Positions 2,109-11,931 of a DNA stretch of 34,806 bases are shown here, in pieces (positions within the stretch are counted from its first letter, which is position 1; the number at the start of each line of letters is the position of its first letter). Location: positions 1-34,806 of the forward strand of contig NZ_BALY01000019.1 in the NCBI RefSeq assembly GCF_000615445.1. Direction: 5' to 3'. The translations under genes were made by a program, and so were the position numbers. Below the pieces are notes generated by a model. It made no database searches and was not told where the DNA came from. It worked only from the letters and a program-made list of their open reading frames with translations. The DNA comes from Lactobacillus hamsteri DSM 5661 = JCM 6256. Its GTDB lineage: Bacteria > Bacillota > Bacilli > Lactobacillales > Lactobacillaceae.

Positions 2109-2471
2109 TTACTTATTCCGTTCAGCATCTTGTTTTTTAACTTCAGCAATTAAACGGTCAATCTTACTACCATATTTAACTGAATTATCACGTTTGAAAA
2201 TAAGTTCAGGAACTTTATAAACTGTCAAAACTTGACCAAGCAAGTGACGAATCATTCCCTTTGCCTTTTCAAAACCTGCAGCAACTTCTTCTTCTTTTTC
2301 AGCATCTTCAGTTAAAAGACTGTAATAAATAGTTGCGTATGACAAATCATTAGTACATTCAACCGCAGTGATAGTAACTTCACTTAAACGGGGATCACGA
2401 ATGTTCTTTTGTAAGATCTTTGTTGTTTCGCGGAGGATTTCTCCTTCAACACGACCAATTCTGTGCTTCAT
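2109..2471 (-). CDS. rbfA: Ribosome-binding factor A
   Basis: RbfA is a small KH-like protein that binds the immature 30S subunit and is needed for 16S rRNA 5'-end maturation and cold growth. The protein begins MKHRIGRVEGEI and contains the family segments DPRLSEVTITAVE and LTVYKVPELIF. I chose the ATG at 2471, giving 120 residues, because AGGAGG lies seven bases upstream and overlaps the infB stop codon (TAGGAGG). The open frame extends further upstream into the end of infB, but that extension is not RbfA-like. It is translationally close to infB, as in B. subtilis. Confidence 0.95.
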   Translation of the reverse strand: MKHRIGRVEGEILRETTKILQKNIRDPRLSEVTITAVECTNDLSYATIYYSLLTEDAEKEEEVAAGFEKAKGMIRHLLGQVLTVYKVPELIFKRDNSVKYGSKIDRLIAEVKKQDAERNK

Positions 2472-2481
2472 GTATTTCCTC

Positions 2482-5189
2482 CTAATATTTAAAGGTATTA
2501 TTGAGCTTAACTTCTTGCATTTCGTAAACTTCAAATTCGTCGCCGACCTTAATGTCATTGTAGCCATTAATAGTCAAACCACAGTCGTTACCTTGCTTAA
2601 CTTCCTTAGCATCATCCTTGTAACGCTTCAAGGAAGCAACTTCACCGTCATACTTGACGATACCGTCACGAATAACTCTAATCTTAGAATGGTTAGTAAC
2701 ATAGCCTTTATCTACGAATGAACCTGCAATAGTACCAACCTTTGATACCTTCCAAGTTTCACGAACAGTAAGGTTACCAGTAACCTTTTCTTCGTAAGTT
2801 GGTTCAAGCATACCCTTCATAGCGGCAGTAACATCGTCAATAGCCTTGTAAATAATGCTGTAAAGACGAATATCTACACCATCGCTTTCAGCTTGTGACT
2901 TAGCAGTTGCAGTTGGACGAACATTGAAACCAATGATGAAGCATTTGAAGCACCAGCCAAAGTAACATCTGATTCGTTAATAGCACCTACGCCTGAGTGG
3001 ATAATATTGACGCGAACACCTTCAACATCAATCTTTTCAAGTGATTGTTGCAATGCTTCTACAGAACCTTGAACATCAGCCTTAAGAACAATGTCAACTT
3101 CCTTCATATTTTCCTTCTTCATAGTATCGAAGAGGTTATCAAGGGTTACGTGAGTTACATTTTCACGTTGCTTTTGCAAAGCTTGTTGAGCTCTTTGTTC
3201 ACCAACTGAACGAGCAGTCTTTTCATCATCAAAGACAACAATCTTATCTGCGGATTCTGGAACATCATTTAAACCAGTAATTTCAACAGGTTCTGATGGA
3301 GTTACCTTCTTAACTTGACGACCACGATCGTTAGTCATTGTACGTATACGACCAAAAGTATTACCAACAACAATTGGATCACCAACATGCAAAGTACCTT
3401 GTTGTACCAAAATATCGGCAACTGGACCACGGCCACGTGACAATCTAGCTTCAATAACAGTACCAATAGCCTTTTGTTTTGGATCTGCCTTAAGTTCCAT
3501 CACATCTGCCTGAAGCAAAATCATTTGAAGCAAATCATCAACGTTTTGACCAGTCTTAGCTGAAATATCCACAAAGATTGTGTCACCACCATAATCTTCT
3601 GGAATCAAATTGTACTTCATCAACTGTTCAGTAACGTGTTGTGGGTTAGCACCTGGAACATCCATCTTGTTGATAGCAACAATAATTGGAACATTAGCAC
3701 TCTTAGCGTGGTCAATAGCTTCGACAGTCTGTGGCATAACACCGTCATCTGCGGCAACAACCAAAACAACGATATCAGTAATTTCTGCACCACGAGCACG
3801 CATGTTAGAGAATGCGGCATGTCCTGGAGTATCTAAGAAAGTAATCAAACGATCATCAAGTCTTACTTGGTAAGCACCGATTCTCTGAGTAATACCACCA
3901 GCTTCGTGATCTGAAACGTGGGTATGACGTAAACGGTCAAGCAAAGTAGTCTTACCGTGGTCAACGTGACCCATGATAGTTACAACAGGTGGACGCTTGA
4001 TTTGGTTCTTAGATTCCTTAGAAGCTTCCATTGCCTTACTATAAGCCTTATCAATATCAGAAATATCTTCATGAACCTTTTGTTGAGCATTAATGCCATA
4101 TTCAGCAGCCAAAAGTTCAATAGTATCTTTATCTAATGATTGGTTTTGGTTAGTCATGATACCGAGCATAAAGAGCTTCTTAACGATTTCAGCTGGTTCA
4201 CGGTGTAAAAGCTTACCTAAATCTTGTGCGTTCATACCTTCATCATAAACTAAAGTTTCTGGTAATGGACGTTCCTTACGTTTAGTAGGTTGCTTCTTAG
4301 GTTGTTGTTCATGTTGACGCTTCTTATTCTTACGACGCTTTCTTTCTTGACGGTCAGAATGTTCGCTATGATTGTTAAAGAATTGATTCTTACCCTTGCG
4401 TCCTGGCTTACCGTTATCACGGCCATGACCATTTCCACGTCTTTCATCTTTCTTTGGTGCTGGAGCTTCACTCAATTCAACCTTAGGAATAGATGGTCTC
4501 TTAGCACCATTGTTTTTATGATTATGATTATTATTTCTAGTGTTGCTACTATTATTGCTATTTTCAGCTTTATCTTTCTTAAAACGAGCTGGAGATGGCT
4601 TCAAAATCTTTGGACCGATAGTCTTCTTTTCAGTCTTTTGAGCCTTAGGAGCTTCTTTAGTAGTAGTACTGCTATTTTGCTTGGTTGATTTAGTATCTTT
4701 CTTTGGATTCTTCAATTGTTCGTGATATTCTTTTTTAGTTTTCTTAGCTTGTTCATCTAAAGTGCTTTCTTCTGCACGCTGTTTCTTCTTGAATTGCTTC
4801 AATAAATCACGTGCTGCAGCTTTAGGCTGATTATTACCTTGTTGACTATTTTGATTATTGCGTTCATTACGACGCTTATTTTGATTATTATTTCTAGTGT
4901 TCTTATTATTTTTATGATGATTATTAGACTTTTTATTTTCAGTCTTCTTTTCATTCTTTCTAATAGAAGAAACAGAAATTTTAATCTTATTATTTTTATT
5001 CGTAGATTTTTCTTGCTTTTTAGCGGGAGCGGAGTTTTGGAAACTGCCCTTCAATTGCTTTACTTGCGAATCTTCTAATGATGACATATGGTTTTTAGCA
5101 TCAAAGCCTAAGTCCTTTGCTTTTTGGACCACAACTTTATTATCGATGCCTAACTCTTTTGCGACTTCGTAAATTCTTTCTTTAGCCAT
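2482..5189 (-). CDS. infB: Translation initiation factor IF-2, interrupted by a one-base deletion
   Basis: IF-2 is the GTPase that places initiator fMet-tRNA on the 30S subunit and promotes subunit joining. From the ATG at 5189 (GGAG eight bases upstream, overlapping the ylxQ stop) the protein has an N-terminal IF2N motif, then about 260 residues rich in Asn, Lys and Gln. A second IF2N-like motif follows near 315-370. The G domain has GHVDHGKT at 407-414, DTPGH at 453-457 and NKMD at 507-510. After about residue 750 the frame shifts near 2936-2943, and the remaining C-terminal part (the initiator tRNA-binding domain) reads in another frame to the stop at 2482. Adding one base gives a 902-residue IF-2. 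The gene is essential, so a sequence error is more likely than a real lesion. Confidence 0.9.
2936..2943 (-). other. Apparent single-base deletion in infB
   Basis: On the minus strand the codons run AAT GCT TCA TCA. IF-2 conservation expects Ala-Phe-Ile-Ile-Gly here, which needs GCT TTC ATC ATT. One T appears to be missing from a run of three. Restoring it joins the two open frames without any other change. Confidence 0.85.
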
Positions 5190-5193
5190 CCAA

Positions 5194-5505
5194 TCACACT
5201 CCTTCATTAATCTTTTTAGTTAACGCTTTATAAAAACCAACATCTGTTAATCCCATAACCTTGCGTTTTTTACCAATAGCATGAGCCAATTCTTCACTAC
5301 TGAAAAGATCAATGATCGAAACATTGACCTTTTTGGCAGCGCGAATTACTTTTTCAGATGTGTTTTCGTGTAAATCACTAGCTAAAATTATGACTTTTAC
5401 TTGTCCTTTATTAAGCGCACTGATTACAGTTTCAGTCCCTGAGACTATCTTTCCTGCTCTCATTGCTAGACCTAATAAATTTAATGCCTTTTGTTTATTT
5501 TGCAA
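5194..5505 (-). CDS. ylxQ: L7Ae-family ribosomal protein, YlxQ
   Basis: This 103-residue RNA-binding protein belongs to the L7Ae/L30e/Gadd45 family and recognises kink-turn RNA. The segments [16 protein letters not shown] (residues 8-23) and [18 protein letters not shown] are typical. The start is TTG, with GGTGAT about nine bases upstream overlapping the end of ylxR. It lies two bases after ylxR, and its stop overlaps the Shine-Dalgarno region of infB, matching the conserved nusA-ylxR-ylxQ-infB order. Its role in the cell is not firmly known. Confidence 0.9.
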
Positions 5506-5507
5506 TA

Positions 5508-5804
5508 TTATTTATCACCAAACAATTCTTTTCTTGCTTTTTGGTGATCAACATAAGAATAAAGTTCTTCATAGAAACTATCTGGCACTTTAGCACCCAA
5601 ACTACGTTCCAAAACTTCACTTTCTTTTGCTGATTCAATCTTGCTTGGATCCAATGAGACATATGCGCCTCTACCTGGCTTTTTACCAGTTGGATCAACG
5701 GAAATATTTTTTTCTTTATCTATTACTACACGAACCAATTCTTTTTTTGGTTGCATTGTATTAGTTAATAAATCTTTCCGCATTGGAATTTTTCTTTTTT
5801 TCAA
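5508..5804 (-). CDS. ylxR: YlxR/RnpM-family RNA-binding protein
   Basis: A 98-residue member of the YlxR (DUF448) family, whose B. subtilis member has been described as an RNase P modulator (RnpM). The conserved start KRKIPMRKDL and the core DPTGKKPGRGAYVSLD are present. The Cys that often follows PMRK in relatives is Asp here. The C-terminal part (about 20 residues) is charged. It lies 14 bases downstream of nusA and directly upstream of ylxQ. The function of this particular copy is inferred from family and position only. Confidence 0.9.
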   Translation of the reverse strand: MKKRKIPMRKDLLTNTMQPKKELVRVVIDKEKNISVDPTGKKPGRGAYVSLDPSKIESAKESEVLERSLGAKVPDSFYEELYSYVDHQKARKELFGDK

Positions 5805-5818
5805 AAGATCACCAATCC

Positions 5819-7015
5819 TTACTCTTCAGTATTATCGTCTGATTCTGAATTTTCTTGTGCAGATTCATCTGCAGTTGTTTCTTCAGCTTCAGTACTTTCA
5901 GTATCTTCAGAAACTGGTGCTTCTACATTTTCTGCTTCAGCATCATCTTCTGTATTCTTACTTTCTTCGTCAACAAATTCTACTTCAGATTCTGGACGAA
6001 TATCAATCTTGTAGCCAGTTAAACGAGCCGCAAGTCTTACATTTTGACCCTTCTTACCAATAGCTAATGATAATTGGTAATCTGGAACAATTACTAAAGC
6101 ACTCTTTTCTTCTTCATCATCACCAAACTGAACGGCAATAACTTCTGCAGGGTTAAGAGCATTAGCAATAAAGTCAGATGGATCATCTTCAAACTTAACG
6201 ATATCGATGTTTTCGCCACCTAATTCGTTAACAACATTTTGAACACGAGCACCACGTTGACCAACACAAGTACCAACTGGGTCAATGTTAGGATCATTTG
6301 ACTTAACTGCAATCTTAGTTCTATCGCCAGCTTCACGAGCTACTGACACAATTTCAACAGTTCCATCATAAATTTCTGGAACTTCTTGTTCAAACAAACG
6401 CTTAACCATATCTGGAGCAGTTCTTGAAACAACGATTTGTGCACCCTTAGCATCTGAACCAACACGAGTTACAAGTACACGAATCTTATCTTGTGGGTTG
6501 TAAGTTTCGTTAGGCATTTGATCACGATGAGGCATAACAGCTTCAACATTACCAATCTTAACGTAAACAAAACGATTATCCTGACGTTCAACTGTACCAG
6601 TAATCAATTCATCTTCATATTGTGAGTATTCACTGACAATTTGGTTTCTTTCAGCTTCACGAAGACGTTGCATTACAACTTGCTTAGCTGTTTGAGCAGC
6701 AATTCTACCAAAGTTCTTTGGAGTTATTTCAAAACGAATTTCATCGCCAACTTCATAAGCTCTATTAATTGCCAAAGCATCTTTTAAGCTGACTTCTAAA
6801 CGATCATCTTGAACTTCATCGACAACAGTTTTAACAGCAATAACCTTAAAGTTACCCTTCTTTTCATCGAATTCAACTTCAACGTTTTGTGCTTGATTAT
6901 AGTTTTTCTTGTATGCAGCTACTAAAGCGGCCTTGATAGCATCAACAATAACATCTTGTTTAATGCCTTTCTTTTCTTCCAAAGTGGCAAACGCTTCTAG
7001 CATTTCTTTAGACAT
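5819..7015 (-). CDS. nusA: Transcription termination/antitermination factor NusA
   Basis: NusA binds RNA polymerase and modulates pausing, intrinsic termination and antitermination. The order is an N-terminal polymerase-binding domain (about 1-125), an S1 domain (about 136-200), KH1 (about 230-285, loop GQRGAR at 252-257) and KH2 (about 300-342, loop GKKGQN at 320-325). A strongly acidic tail of Glu, Asp, Ser and Thr fills residues 343-398. The length is slightly more than B. subtilis NusA because of this tail. It follows rimP by 18 bases. Expression is probably governed by the promoter and leader hairpin at 7531-7613, which may be a NusA-responsive attenuator. Confidence 0.95.
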   Translation of the reverse strand: MSKEMLEAFATLEEKKGIKQDVIVDAIKAALVAAYKKNYNQAQNVEVEFDEKKGNFKVIAVKTVVDEVQDDRLEVSLKDALAINRAYEVGDEIRFEITPKNFGRIAAQTAKQVVMQRLREAERNQIVSEYSQYEDELITGTVERQDNRFVYVKIGNVEAVMPHRDQMPNETYNPQDKIRVLVTRVGSDAKGAQIVVSRTAPDMVKRLFEQEVPEIYDGTVEIVSVAREAGDRTKIAVKSNDPNIDPVGTCVGQRGARVQNVVNELGGENIDIVKFEDDPSDFIANALNPAEVIAVQFGDDEEEKSALVIVPDYQLSLAIGKKGQNVRLAARLTGYKIDIRPESEVEFVDEESKNTEDDAEAENVEAPVSEDTESTEAEETTADESAQENSESDDNTEE

Positions 7016-7033: not shown

Positions 7034-7513
7034 CTAAAATTCAATTGCAAAACGAGCATTTGCAATTAACTTACGGGGAATAGTTAAAGTCTTTCGTCTA
7101 GTCTTTATCTTAATTTCAAGCTCAATTTCCTCATCATTGTAAGATTTGAGCGTACCTTCAAACATTTTTTTACCATCAATCTTTTGATAAAGACCAACAT
7201 GGATATACTCGCCATTTGCTTTTTCCCAATCTTTTGCGTTCTTAATGGGACGTTCAACACCGGGAGAAGACAATTCCAAAACATAAGGATCTGGTAATGG
7301 ATCCGGCTCTAAGCTATCAAGCTTTTCTGAAACTTCTTCACTTAAAGCTGCGATTTCATCGATGTCAATACCTCCGGGTTGATCTTTATCAACGTAGATC
7401 CGTAGATAATTTTGACTCTTTTCCTTAACATATTCAATATCAACGAATTCATCACCACGAGCAGCAATGATTGGTTCAATTTCTGAACGAACAAGATCTG
7501 TAACTTTAGACAA
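7034..7513 (-). CDS. rimP: Ribosome maturation factor RimP
   Basis: RimP helps assemble the 30S subunit. The 159-residue protein shows the family core [19 protein letters not shown], then [16 protein letters not shown] and a C-terminal Sm-like half ending [14 protein letters not shown] place the start at TTG 7513, giving MSKVTDLV, because GGAGG lies about eight bases upstream. A longer frame reaching 7555 would use an ATG inside the leader hairpin and a non-RimP-like N-terminus, so it is rejected. It is the first gene of the nusA-infB transcription unit. Confidence 0.93.
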
Positions 7514-7530
7514 AAATTTTCCTCCGTAAT

Positions 7531-7557
7531 AAAAAGAGTGAGCATTACTGCTCACTC
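7531..7557 (-). terminator. Leader terminator/attenuator hairpin before rimP
   Basis: A perfect 9-bp stem pairs 7549-7557 with 7536-7544 around a four-base loop, followed by only five T on the minus strand. It stands downstream of the rimP promoter and upstream of the rimP Shine-Dalgarno sequence, so it is in the rimP leader as well as after polC. The loop and flanking base (GTAAT) complement ATTAC at 7526-7530, right beside the GGAGG. Confidence 0.85.
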
Positions 7558-7585
7558 GAATTTACCTATTCGAACTTCATGAATA

Positions 7586-7613
7586 AGTATACCATGTTTA
7601 CTAATTTTTTCAA
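7586..7613 (-). promoter_or_regulatory. Promoter of the rimP-nusA-infB operon
   Basis: On the minus strand, TTGAAA (7608-7613) and TATACT (7586-7591) are separated by 16 bases, with a predicted start near 7579. It lies in the short gap between the polC stop and rimP. The matches to the vegetative consensus are good, and the position at the head of the operon supports it. Confidence 0.75.
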
Positions 7614-7624
7614 AATTAAGCTAC

Positions 7625-10600
7625 TTAAAATAATGATAATTGATTCTGATCTGGAAGACCTTCTAAGACACCATTATTTTCAAAGTAATCCATAATTGTT
7701 TGTGACACTTTACCGCGTTTAGCCAAATCCTCTTTTGACAAGAATTTTTGTTCCGCACGAGCTGCAACAATTTGCTTAGCAGCATTGTCACCTAAACCAG
7801 GAACGGCATTAAATGGTGCTAAAATAGTATGCTTATCAAGAATCTTGAAGTTCAAAGCCTCAGACTGATCTACATCAACCATTTTAATTTTAATACCACG
7901 TTCCAAACATTCATTGGCAATTTCCAAAACAGTAAGCAAGCTCTTATCCTTTGCAGAAGCGTCCATTCCTTTATCTTGAATAGCTTTCATCGCTGCCTTA
8001 ACAGTATTCTTACCATGACTCATTGCAACTAAATCAAACAAATCGGCACGAACCGAGAAGTAAGCAGTGTAATAAATCTCTGGATAATATACTTTAAACC
8101 ATGCTATACGTAAAGCCATCAAAATATAAGCCGTCGCGTGAGCCTTAGGGAACATGTACTTAATCTTCAAACATGAAGGAATATACCAATCAGGAATATT
8201 CTTATTCTTCTTAAGAACTGCCATATTGTCATCGCTGATTCCTCGACCGTGACGAACAGATTCCATTGTTGAAAAGGCGATTTCTGGTTTAACACCCCAG
8301 TGAATCAAGTCCATCATGATGTTGTCACGACAACCAATTACATCTTTCAATTTGCAGGTACCATTATTAATCAAGTCTTCTGCGTTCCCTAACCATACGT
8401 CAGTACCATGGGAAAGTCCAGAAATCTGCAATAATTCTGAGAATGTTGTCGGTTTAGTTTCTTCAAGCATCCCTCTTACAAATCGTGTTCCGAATTCTGG
8501 TACACCCAAAGTTCCAGTCTTTGATTGAATTTGTTCTGGAGTTACGCCTAAAATCTCTGGACTTGAAAAAAGAGACATAACACCTGGATCATCAGGCGGA
8601 ATTGTTAACGGATCAATTCCTGATAAATCTTGAAGCATTCTGATCATAGTCGGATCATCATGTCCCAAAATATCAAATTTCAAAATATTATCGTGAATTG
8701 AGTGGAAGTCGAAGTGCGTAGTTAGCCATGCAGCGTTCACATCATCGGCAGGATATTGTACAGGAGTAAAATCATAAATATCCATGTCATTTGGAACAAC
8801 AACGATTCCCGCAGGGTGCTGCCCCGTTGTTCTCTTAACACCTGAAACTCCCGCAGCCAAACGATCTAGCTCGGCATTTCTTAACTTCAATTCGCGTTCT
8901 TCATCAAAGTGTTTTGCATAACCGTAAGCAGTTTTATCAGCAACCGTGGCAATAGTTCCGGCACGATATGAATTATCTGGTCCAAACATTACTCGAATAA
9001 AGTTATGGGCAACTGGTTGATAGTCTCCAGAGAAGTTCAAATCGATATCAGGAACCTTATCACCGTGGAAGCCCAAGAATGTCGCAAATGGAATATCCTG
9101 ACCATCTTTAACAAGCGGGGTCCCACACTTCGGACAATCTTTATCTGGCAAGTCGTAACCTGAACCATATTCACCATTGGTAAAGAAGTGTGAATATTTA
9201 CATTTTGGACAACGATAATGTGGTGCCAATGGATTAACTTCCGTAATACCTGACATTGTCGCAACTAAACTTGAGCCAACGGACCCACGAGATCCAACCA
9301 AATAGCCATCTTTATTTGATTTAGCTACCAAACGTTGTGAAATTAAGTAAATAACCGCATAACCATTAGAAATAATTGAATTTAATTCCATATCAACACG
9401 GTCTTTTACGATCTCAGGTAGTGATTTGCCATAAAGCTCATAGGCTTTATTGTAAGTTAAATCCTTCATTTCTTGATCAGCATTATCAATATGTGGAGGA
9501 TACAAACCATCTTTAATTGGGGCAATTTCGCCTAATTCATCAGCAATCTTGTTAGTATTATCAATAACAATTTCTTTAGCCGCATCTTCACCTAAGAAAC
9601 TAAATGCATCAAGCATTTCCTGCGTTGTATAAAAATGTAAATCAGGTTGTGGTTTATTACGGTTTGGATTAGATCTCTGAGCCGAAATCAAAATTGTTCG
9701 ATAAATCTTTTCATGCGGCTCAACGTAATGCGCGTCGCAATCAGCAACAACCGGCTTGCCAAGTTCTTTACCTAGCTTATAAATATTAGTAATAATTTCT
9801 TCCAATTCATCTTCATCAGCAATTAAATGATCTTCAATTAATTGAGAGTAAGCTGCTGGAGGTTGAACTTCCAAGAAATCATAAAACTTGGCCTTTTTAC
9901 GTGCTTCTTCATATCCCTTTTGCATCATGCAATAAAGACTTCGCCTTGCCAACAGCCAGAACCATAAAGAAGGTTATCATGCAATCTTCTTAAATCAGAT
10001 TTTGGTGTTCTTGGAACACGGTAAAAGTTTGTAGTGCTTGCAATAGAAACAAGTTTATACATATTTTTCAAACCGGCTTGATTCTTAGCCAAAATAGTCA
10101 TATGCATTGGACGCGCACGTTTATATACTTCACCATGTTCAGCATAATTATTAAGCTTGCCAAGATTATCTTCATCGAATCTCTTATCAAAGGCATCGAG
10201 AAGCTTAAACATTAAATAACCTGTAGCTTCCGCATCTTGGTTAGCACGGTGGTGGTGTTCCAAAACAACATTATACTTTTTAGCCAAAGAATCCAATGTA
10301 TGTCTTGTTTGTTCAGGATGGAGCAAACGAGATACTTCCAAAGTATCAACAACTGGCTGTGTAATTTCTTCAAGTCCACTTCTGCGAAGAGCTGCATTGA
10401 CAAAGCCAACATCGAATTGAACATTATGACCGCAAAGAGGATCATCGCCATAAAACTCTTTGAATTGCTTAATAACAACATCTTCATCATCAGCTGCACT
10501 AACCATTTCATCAGTAATAGACGTTAAATTAATAGTCTGATCACTCAAAGGATGATGCGGATTGATAAATTTATCAAAGCGATCAATAACTTCACCATTC

Positions 10601-11931
10601 TTCATCTTAACGGCCCCAATTTCAATAATCGTGTCGTAAACTGAAGAAAGTCCAGTTGTTTCAACGTCGAAGATAACAAATTCACGATCTTTATAGCTCA
10701 TATCAGCTGGATTTAACACTAAAAGAGCATGATCATCAATCATATTGGCTTCAACACCGTATAAAACCTTTAAGCCAGCTGCTGCTCCAGCGCTATATGC
10801 TTCTGGGAATGATTGAACATCACCATGATCAGTAATAGCAATAGCAGTTTGACCAAATTTTTTCGCTGCCTTAATAAATTCAGTAGCCGTACTTGTTGCA
10901 TCAAGTTGACTCATATTAGTATGAAGATGAAGTTCAACACGTTTTTTATCGCCTTCATATTTTTCTACACGGCCAACATGTTCAATAGTTTCGAAATTAT
11001 AAATATTGAAAACAACATCATGTTCCCATTGATCATCTGCAGCTGTACCCTGCATTTTTGCCCAAGTACCCGATTTAATTGCGGACAAACTTTCAATTTC
11101 TTCTTTATTTGAAGCAAACTTTTTAAACATGATTGAATCTGTATAGTCAGTAATTTCTCCTGTAAAAATTACAGATCCAGATTTTAATTCTCTAGCTTCA
11201 ATATTGAAAATGTTACCTTCAATTACAACATTACGCGTACCATCTTCAATATCTTGAATTTGCGTAATTGGTGCATTTTCATCTAGCTTTTTATTACCAT
11301 AACTCTTTCGCTTGGTTGGATATTGCCGAGGTTGTGATTTCGGTTTAGTCGGAGCTGCTTCATATGCTTCTTGCATATTTTTTTCATGTTCTTGTTGAAG
11401 CTGTTGTAGACTTTCGAGATTATTTTGTGAACTCGCTTGATCTACTTCGGTAATAAACTTCAAATTGAAGAATCCAAAATTCCTTAATTCTTCAGCTAAA
11501 TCGTCTAATGCTTCTTGTTCAATCAATCCATCAATTACATTGTTATCAACTGGAATAATCCAACGACCATTTTCTTTATCGGGTTTTTGTCCTGCTAAAA
11601 ACTCACGTGCAACTGGTTGCAACACGTTTGAATTCTGCACAGCATAATGCCAGTAATCTGTTAAATATTTGTCAGAACCATCTTTAGTTCCAACAAATAA
11701 ACGTATATTAACAAAATCTTTGAAGTTTTCGGTAACAGCTTTATTTAAAGCATTATATGTTTCAAACTTTAAAGGCGTATCAAAAAGAACGTGGATATCC
11801 CACTTATGTTCTTTAGCGTATACATCCACGTTCTCAACCTCCCCTTTTTGAAGCATTTCATTATCTTCAAAAGAATCGGGGAATTTGATTTGCTTTAAAA
11901 GTTTTAAGAATAAATTGTTTTTATTTGCCAC
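7625..11931 (-). CDS. polC: DNA polymerase III PolC, interrupted by a one-base deletion
   Basis: PolC is the replicative polymerase of low-GC Gram-positives, with built-in 3'-5' exonuclease. The order is an N-terminal domain, an OB fold (about 225-330), a PHP domain (HLHTN, ITDHG) interrupted by a DEDD exonuclease (FDVETTGLS), the rest of PHP, then polymerase. The polymerase part shows a four-Cys zinc site (CPKC twice), [10 protein letters not shown] with catalytic aspartates, and LFDLV. The start is GTG at 11931, six bases after proS. After residue 668 a TGA appears near 9927, and the protein resumes one frame over. Restoring one base gives 1435 residues, the normal size. The gene is essential, so an error in the sequence is likely. 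Confidence 0.92.
9926..9931 (-). other. Apparent single-base deletion in polC
   Basis: The minus strand reads ATT GCA TGA TGC. Restoring one A gives ATT GCA ATG ATG CAA, and the conserved [14 protein letters not shown]. As it stands, the upstream frame stops at a TGA that overlaps an ATG of the downstream frame (ATGATG), so reinitiation is formally possible. The break falls inside the PHP domain, which makes two separate proteins unlikely. Confidence 0.85.

Follow-up and report, generated by a model that had tools for sequence, protein, structure and literature searches.

The attenuator class 'rimP-leader' was named by Naville and Gautheret in 2010 (PMC2965389) and is represented in Rfam by the family RF01770 (rimP). 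In Bacillus subtilis, NusA controls its own synthesis by stimulating termination in its 5' leader (PMC12288461). An operon of Streptococcus agalactiae was reported to yield two RNAs from one start, a short one terminated at +31 and a long one, and NusA feedback was proposed (PMC4448216). Terminators with a terminal G-C pair were proposed to depend on NusA alone, and interrupted distal U-tracts were noted at NusA- and NusG-dependent terminators (PMC8060035). The level of NusA decides the efficiency of many terminators, and its setting matters widely.

Here, we analysed a stretch of 34,806 nucleotides (the window) of Lactobacillus hamsteri DSM 5661 = JCM 6256 (contig NZ_BALY01000019.1), taken from an assembly of 1.83 Mb in 81 contigs. 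A preliminary description had located a terminator within the rimP-nusA leader, past the leader's own promoter, and had pointed to NusA autoregulation through a leader terminator in B. subtilis, which is indeed stated in a review (PMC12288461). We confirmed that this attenuator-like terminator is a real and strongly conserved feature: a hairpin downstream of a promoter was present in all 74 leaders of the genus Lactobacillus.

Organization of the leader and operon

The leader and the operon were encoded on the minus strand. The upstream gene polC ended at position 7625, 11 bases before the -35 element of an extended -10 promoter found by scanning (7586–7613; TTGAAA-16-TATACT, 10 of 12 matches, with TGG before TATACT). 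For comparison, we used the leaders of the 74 out of 75 Lactobacillus genomes with a RimP match (the missing genome was 85% complete). A -10 element with at least four of six matches lay upstream of the conserved block in all 74, and TG was present in 68. Since the -10 element ended 6–7 nt before GAAG, the first letters of the block, in 61 of the 74, the block probably begins at +1. The likely transcription start in the window was at 7578–7579, 7–8 nt past the -10 element, where the conserved block GAAGTTCGAATA starts.

The terminator hairpin (T; GAGTGAGCA-GTAA-TGCTCACTC, 7557–7536) began 28 bases past the end of the -10 element. It was followed by the U-tract TTTTT (7535–7531) and by a tail conserved in the genus leaders, ATTAC (7530–7526). 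A second hairpin (P1), formed by TTCGAAT (7574–7568) and ATTCGAG (7561–7555), was a candidate competitor of the terminator. The rimP ribosome-binding site GGAGG (7521–7525) started 10 bases downstream of T. The rimP gene (7034–7513; 159 aa; Pfam RimP_N and DUF150_C) had a TTG start at 7513; the start codon was TTG in 73 of the 74 genus genomes and GTG in one, and this conserved weak start might limit expression further. Downstream lay nusA (5819–7015; NusA_N, S1 and KH domains in Pfam), encoding the proposed feedback effector, and the remainder of the operon, namely ylxR, a gene for an L7Ae-type protein, infB and rbfA (2109–5804).

The frame of infB was broken in this contig, with one part at 2874–5207 and another at 2482–2820 (both minus strand), the latter matching positions 479–583 of the 587 positions of the IF-2 profile. 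Since infB is an essential gene, the break is probably an indel of the draft assembly. On this contig polC (7625–11931, minus strand), likewise an essential gene, also had a broken frame and was split into two overlapping parts at 9925–11931 (profile positions 3–672) and 7625–9952 (675–1444). No 16S gene was found in this draft genome.

Conservation of the terminator in Lactobacillus

The perfect 9-bp stem of T and its position upstream of the rimP ribosome site agreed with the preliminary description. With up to three mismatches, the hairpin pattern occurred once in the window and never in 100 shuffles. In the whole genome it was found at a single place, read on both strands because the pattern is a palindrome. 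No second copy of the element was detected in this genome, neither with the exact pattern nor with a covariance model built from the genus leader block (R1; one match at E ≤ 0.05). A scan of 5 kb was mildly above chance, with seven terminator-like sites (2.9 ± 1.8 expected) and 20 promoter-like sites (14.0 ± 3.8 expected). The fold of the leader had a z-score of -2.07, and seven of 200 shuffles folded equally well. The proof of the element is its conservation, not these scan or fold statistics.

The hairpin, the U-tract and the upstream block were present in all 74 genus leaders, in the order GAAGTTCGAATA, 3–7 bases, ATTCGAGTGAGC, loop, GCTCACTC and TTTTT, with few changes; an extra G occurred at ATTCGAGTGAGC in 17 leaders. 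All eight core pairs of T were intact in the 48 distinct rows of the genus alignment (384 of 384 cells); six pairs were invariant and two changed only to G-U. The terminal pair of T was G-C, and the base before it was C (57 leaders) or G (17), never A. The tail after the stem read TTTTTATTACG in 65 leaders, TTTTTATTGC followed by G or A in six and otherwise in three, and TTTTT was followed by A in 73 of the 74.

Some details of the preliminary description needed correction. The five T it had counted after the stem were present at 7535–7531, but T occupies seven of the eight positions that follow the stem (TTTTTATT). Its loop GTAAT contained the true loop GTAA, a GNRA tetraloop, but the last T belongs to the closing A-U pair. 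Its argument that a weak U-tract marks a NusA-dependent terminator is only suggestive: the U-tract TTTTTATT is interrupted, but the stem is strong (-14.4 kcal/mol).

The terminator in other Bacilli

Leaders were sampled from 80 of 145 other Lactobacillaceae genomes, from 40 of 70 genomes of other Lactobacillales families and from 20 of 66 genomes outside the Lactobacillales. Helix, promoter, energy and covariation counts were based on 211 of the resulting 214 leaders; L143, L235 and L264 were left out, of which L143 and L235 showed a related hairpin by eye. Fifteen named Lactobacillus loci that repeat or may repeat genus genomes were excluded from the counts. Among the records, JAEDAG010000002.1 (L044), titled Faecalicatena absiana, carried a Lactobacillus-like rimP, and its name looks wrong.

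R1 matched 119 of 151 Lactobacillaceae genomes at E ≤ 0.05, and some of the other genomes had second, weaker matches. In the sense orientation and at E ≤ 0.01, R1 matched the rimP leader in 68 of the 80 leaders sampled from 39 other Lactobacillaceae genera and in 17 of 40 leaders from other Lactobacillales families (an antisense match in L249 was not counted). None of the 20 leaders of other Bacilli was matched by R1. A hairpin search recovered the related stem GAGTGAGCG..CGCTCACTC in many other Lactobacillales and forms of AAGAGTGGG..CCCACTCTT in 19 of the 20 leaders from other Bacilli. A loop of the GNRA tetraloop type was present in 44 of 74 leaders of the genus, in 58 of 71 from the rest of the family, in 12 of 37 from other Lactobacillales and in eight of 19 from other Bacilli; at the anchor, 10 of the 211 leaders lacked a clean stem.

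Across 87 genera, each represented by one row, 96.4% of the cells of T were paired, compared with 85.5 ± 0.6% after shuffling of partners (reached in none of 500 shuffles). Double-sided changes numbered 88, compared with 25.5 ± 4.7 in shuffles that ignore relatedness (again none of 500). The stem pairs were kept in the genus and covaried over the 87 genera; the loop did not covary with ATTAC.

In some genera, T was distant from the gene (89 nt in L144 and 126 nt in L185), and the hairpin and its tail were kept there. In L146 (genus g10), T followed three tRNA genes (Thr, Gly and Leu; 197–332) and lay 3 bases past tRNA-Leu; the arrangement of promoter and leader is therefore not universal in the family. 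The tRNA genes in this position recall the tRNA gene metY, which precedes rimP-nusA in Escherichia coli. Five leaders that we assign to a Streptococcus-like group (f4; L228, L231, L234, L237 and L240) had a GAGGCG..CGCCTC-type hairpin and no T run. By eye, a second conserved stretch was seen near the start, approximately GTAATNNGATACT in the leaders of many Lactobacillales and GGTAATACT in those of several other Bacilli. This stretch, which lies upstream of T, might serve as a binding site for a protein, independently of P1.

A second hairpin overlapping the terminator

The preliminary description had suggested that the loop of T or an alternative fold might hide or expose the ribosome site. 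The loop-based fold was not borne out by the comparisons given below, but a different alternative fold, which that description had missed, is present: P1 shares the bases 7557–7555 (GAG) with the foot of the T stem. P1 forms in the nascent RNA, at a stage when the 3' arm of T has not yet been made (calculated minimum free energy -5.0 kcal/mol). The energies calculated with ViennaRNA were -4.4 kcal/mol for the 7-pair P1, -14.4 kcal/mol for T and -7.2 kcal/mol for T lacking its last three pairs. The closed T was still favoured by approximately 4 kcal/mol even with P1.

In the genus leaders, completion of T gained on average 4.5 kcal/mol (median 4.0), compared with 6.9 kcal/mol when the upstream sequence was shuffled, and the natural upstream piece hindered completion in all 58 distinct leaders. 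The same hindrance was calculated for 18 of 33 other Lactobacillaceae genera, five of 27 other Lactobacillales and four of 19 other Bacilli (five of 38 other Lactobacillaceae genera and two of 29 other Lactobacillales genera were left out of the energy test).

We also counted strong helices (a score of 9 or more on a scale of our own) between the 24 upstream bases and the foot of T, using shuffles that ignore relatedness between genomes. Strong P1-like helices linked the two in 28 of the 39 genera of the Lactobacillaceae (29 once one anchor was corrected), compared with 17.8 ± 2.8 in shuffled sequences (reached in none of 200 shuffles). A control segment 30 nt further upstream gave 15 of 39 (17.8 shuffled). 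No clear enrichment of such helices was seen in the remaining Lactobacillales (11 of 29, compared with 7.6 ± 2.0, reached in 20 of 200 shuffles; control segment 16 of 29, compared with 12.5, 17 of 200) or in other Bacilli (10 of 19, compared with 7.8 ± 1.9, 35 of 200; control segment seven of 19, compared with 7.9). The idea of P1 as an antiterminator of all Bacilli was thus rejected, as its helices did not clearly exceed shuffles outside the Lactobacillaceae.

The partners in P1 varied by genus, with ACTC/GAGT, TACTTC/GAAGTG (where the foot becomes AAGT) and ATTTACA/TGTAAAT (where it becomes AAAT). Within the genus Lactobacillus, P1 had no double-sided change, and 88.4% of its cells were paired in an alignment in which MAFFT misaligns 12 of the 48 rows, those with the extra G. 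Its covariation there was 0.034, and one slid control was higher (0.088). Among the 39 family genera, the score between P1 and the foot was 11.22, compared with 10.69 ± 0.19 when upstream segments were permuted (reached in none of 1000 permutations). This signal was carried by seven changed-foot genera, which cannot be counted as independent; the eighth such genus (GGGT) scored better with other feet. We regard the covariation of P1 with the foot of T in the Lactobacillaceae as moderate. The competing 5' hairpin looks like a lineage addition.

The lowest-energy fold of a longer leader (out to ATTACGG) contained no P1 and instead had an outer stem, GGTAAA/TTTATT, around T; the 5' part of this stem lies in a stretch that is variable within the genus. 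P1 could therefore matter only during transcription. A reading of TTCGAAT as a tRNA-like sequence was discarded, as no tRNA was found in the window.

Proposed mechanism and alternatives

The leader is probably a rimP-leader-type attenuator through which NusA feedback adjusts the expression of the rimP-nusA-infB operon. We regard this as the best mechanism because NusA-stimulated leader termination was reported for B. subtilis and a short terminated leader RNA for S. agalactiae; by analogy with these systems, we infer that T in Lactobacillus depends on NusA. RNA polymerase would start at approximately 7578 and meet T within about 50 nt. Were it always effective, a strong terminator some 20–40 nt past the start would silence the operon. 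NusA, the product of the second gene of the operon, would stimulate termination: when it is plentiful, the NusA-bound polymerase would pause at the U-tract, T would close completely, releasing a leader RNA of about 45–50 nt, and when it is scarce, the polymerase would read into rimP-nusA. The strength of T, taken alone, would suggest a terminator that needs no help. The G-C pair at the end of its stem and the interruption in its U-tract are in line with what was proposed for terminators dependent on NusA alone (PMC8060035).

P1 may tune this dependence. It would form first and hold the GAG bases required by the foot of T, so that closing the last three pairs of T would be a strand exchange; through this exchange, a terminator that is otherwise strong would come to depend on a pause or on NusA. 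Feedback by NusA is stated for B. subtilis, and other Bacilli had no clear P1; P1 is therefore not needed for the basic circuit. A more speculative reading, less likely than not, is that P1 is a brake that made the strong, anciently conserved T responsive to NusA in the Lactobacillaceae, with a slow strand exchange that would sense how long the polymerase pauses and thereby the NusA concentration, and that it would have replaced the A-U foot of other Bacilli.

Alternatively, the attenuator might respond to a signal other than NusA, such as RimP, a ribosomal protein, NusG, or the NusB-S10 complex acting on the boxA-like CACTCTTT. A bound factor is suggested by the strong conservation of the stem sequence, and CACTCTTT resembles boxA; however, genera with GGCTCATTT or GCTCACTTTT do not keep this likeness, and the boxA reading was rejected. 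Although RimP was also named as a possible factor by Naville and Gautheret (PMC2965389), it is NusA for which autoregulation is stated in B. subtilis (PMC12288461), and we consider a different signal unlikely.

A simpler possibility is that T terminates the upstream polC, with the rimP promoter in front of it by chance and no regulation involved. The end of polC lies 11 bases before the -35 element in the window and was recognized directly upstream of the leader in 65 of the 74 genus leaders, and in L146 there is no room for a promoter between tRNA-Leu and T, which could end a tRNA operon there. Yet the whole block was kept in the nine genus leaders in which a pattern search found no polC end, and T followed a -10 site in all 74. 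The stem sequence was kept over most of the 87 genera, a constancy that an ordinary terminator does not need, and the short terminated RNAs of S. agalactiae came from the operon's own start (PMC4448216). A mere polC terminator is therefore improbable.

Least probable is an action in translation or as DNA, in which the loop or P1 would hide the ribosome site, or TTCGAAT...ATTCGAG would be an operator at the start site: the ribosome site is indeed only 10 bases past T in the window and P1 is an inverted repeat in the DNA at about +5, but the pairing of the loop with ATTAC, proposed earlier as a pseudoknot, occurred in 26 of 74 genus genomes compared with 25.0 after permuting the tails, the loop paired with the five bases past the U-tract in two of the 29 other Lactobacillaceae genera having this hairpin form, T and the conserved tail persisted where the ribosome site is far away (L144 and L185), and the P1-like helices differed in sequence by genus (ACTC, ACTT, ATTTACA) while their pairing to the foot of T was kept, unlike an operator.

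A NusA-responsive attenuator thus remains our preferred reading. The leader is a very small natural attenuator (approximately 50 nt), with a stem sequence conserved across the Bacilli. Two questions become testable in it: whether NusA reads the letters conserved in the stem, and whether NusA dependence can be created by a competing 5' hairpin alone.

Comparison with known systems

Among the matches listed, the open-access literature contained no description of a Lactobacillus rimP leader or of a P1-like hairpin; the supplement of Naville and Gautheret may list Lactobacillus. The gene order of gbs0413-gbs0418 in S. agalactiae is that of the Lactobacillus operon. As in the Lactobacillus leader, a promoter-proximal terminator is located in the leader of this corresponding operon, but termination was reported at +31 (PMC4448216), and the stems of the Streptococcus-like group f4 lacked the GAGTGAGC form. 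They also had no T run, in spite of the termination reported for S. agalactiae. The nusA operon of B. subtilis likewise has a terminator in the leader of the operon encoding NusA (Mondal et al. 2016, restated in PMC12288461). Its leader is reported to be 180 nt long (PMC2965389), compared with approximately 65 nt in Lactobacillus, and the effect of NusA was measured there (PMC12288461), whereas that on the Lactobacillus leader is predicted from sequence.

The closest resemblance is to the rimP-leader (PMC2965389), which is also the 5' UTR of rimP-nusA-infB with NusA as the proposed factor, and which also consists of a short hairpin with an unusually conserved stem sequence and a T-stretch. The two differ in that the Lactobacillus stem is GAGTGAGC..GCTCACTC rather than GGGc..gCCC and its loop is a GNRA tetraloop. 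The authors of the rimP-leader study saw no antiterminator outside some Gammaproteobacteria (PMC2965389), whereas Lactobacillus has the overlapping candidate P1. RF01770 (gathering cut-off 47 bits) had no match in the window and none at E ≤ 10 in 7400–7700, and among the matches listed it reached the cut-off in none of 61 family genomes. A match to the Rfam family of the small RNA SpF39 was rejected (21 bits against a cut-off of 60; E 1.2–2.4), and the other matches at permissive thresholds were also weak.

The stems of relatives connected the two forms: GAGTGGGC..GCCCGCTC and AAGAGTGGG..CCCACTCTT were intermediate between the Lactobacillus T and the rimP-leader, and other genera and families carried GTGGG(C)..CCCAC or CCCGC stems. 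Because of these intermediates, T of Lactobacillus can be read as a diverged homologue of the rimP-leader. Although neither the stem motif nor RF01770 recognizes it, the Lactobacillus leader thus appears to be a variant of the rimP-leader, to which the intermediate stems link it.
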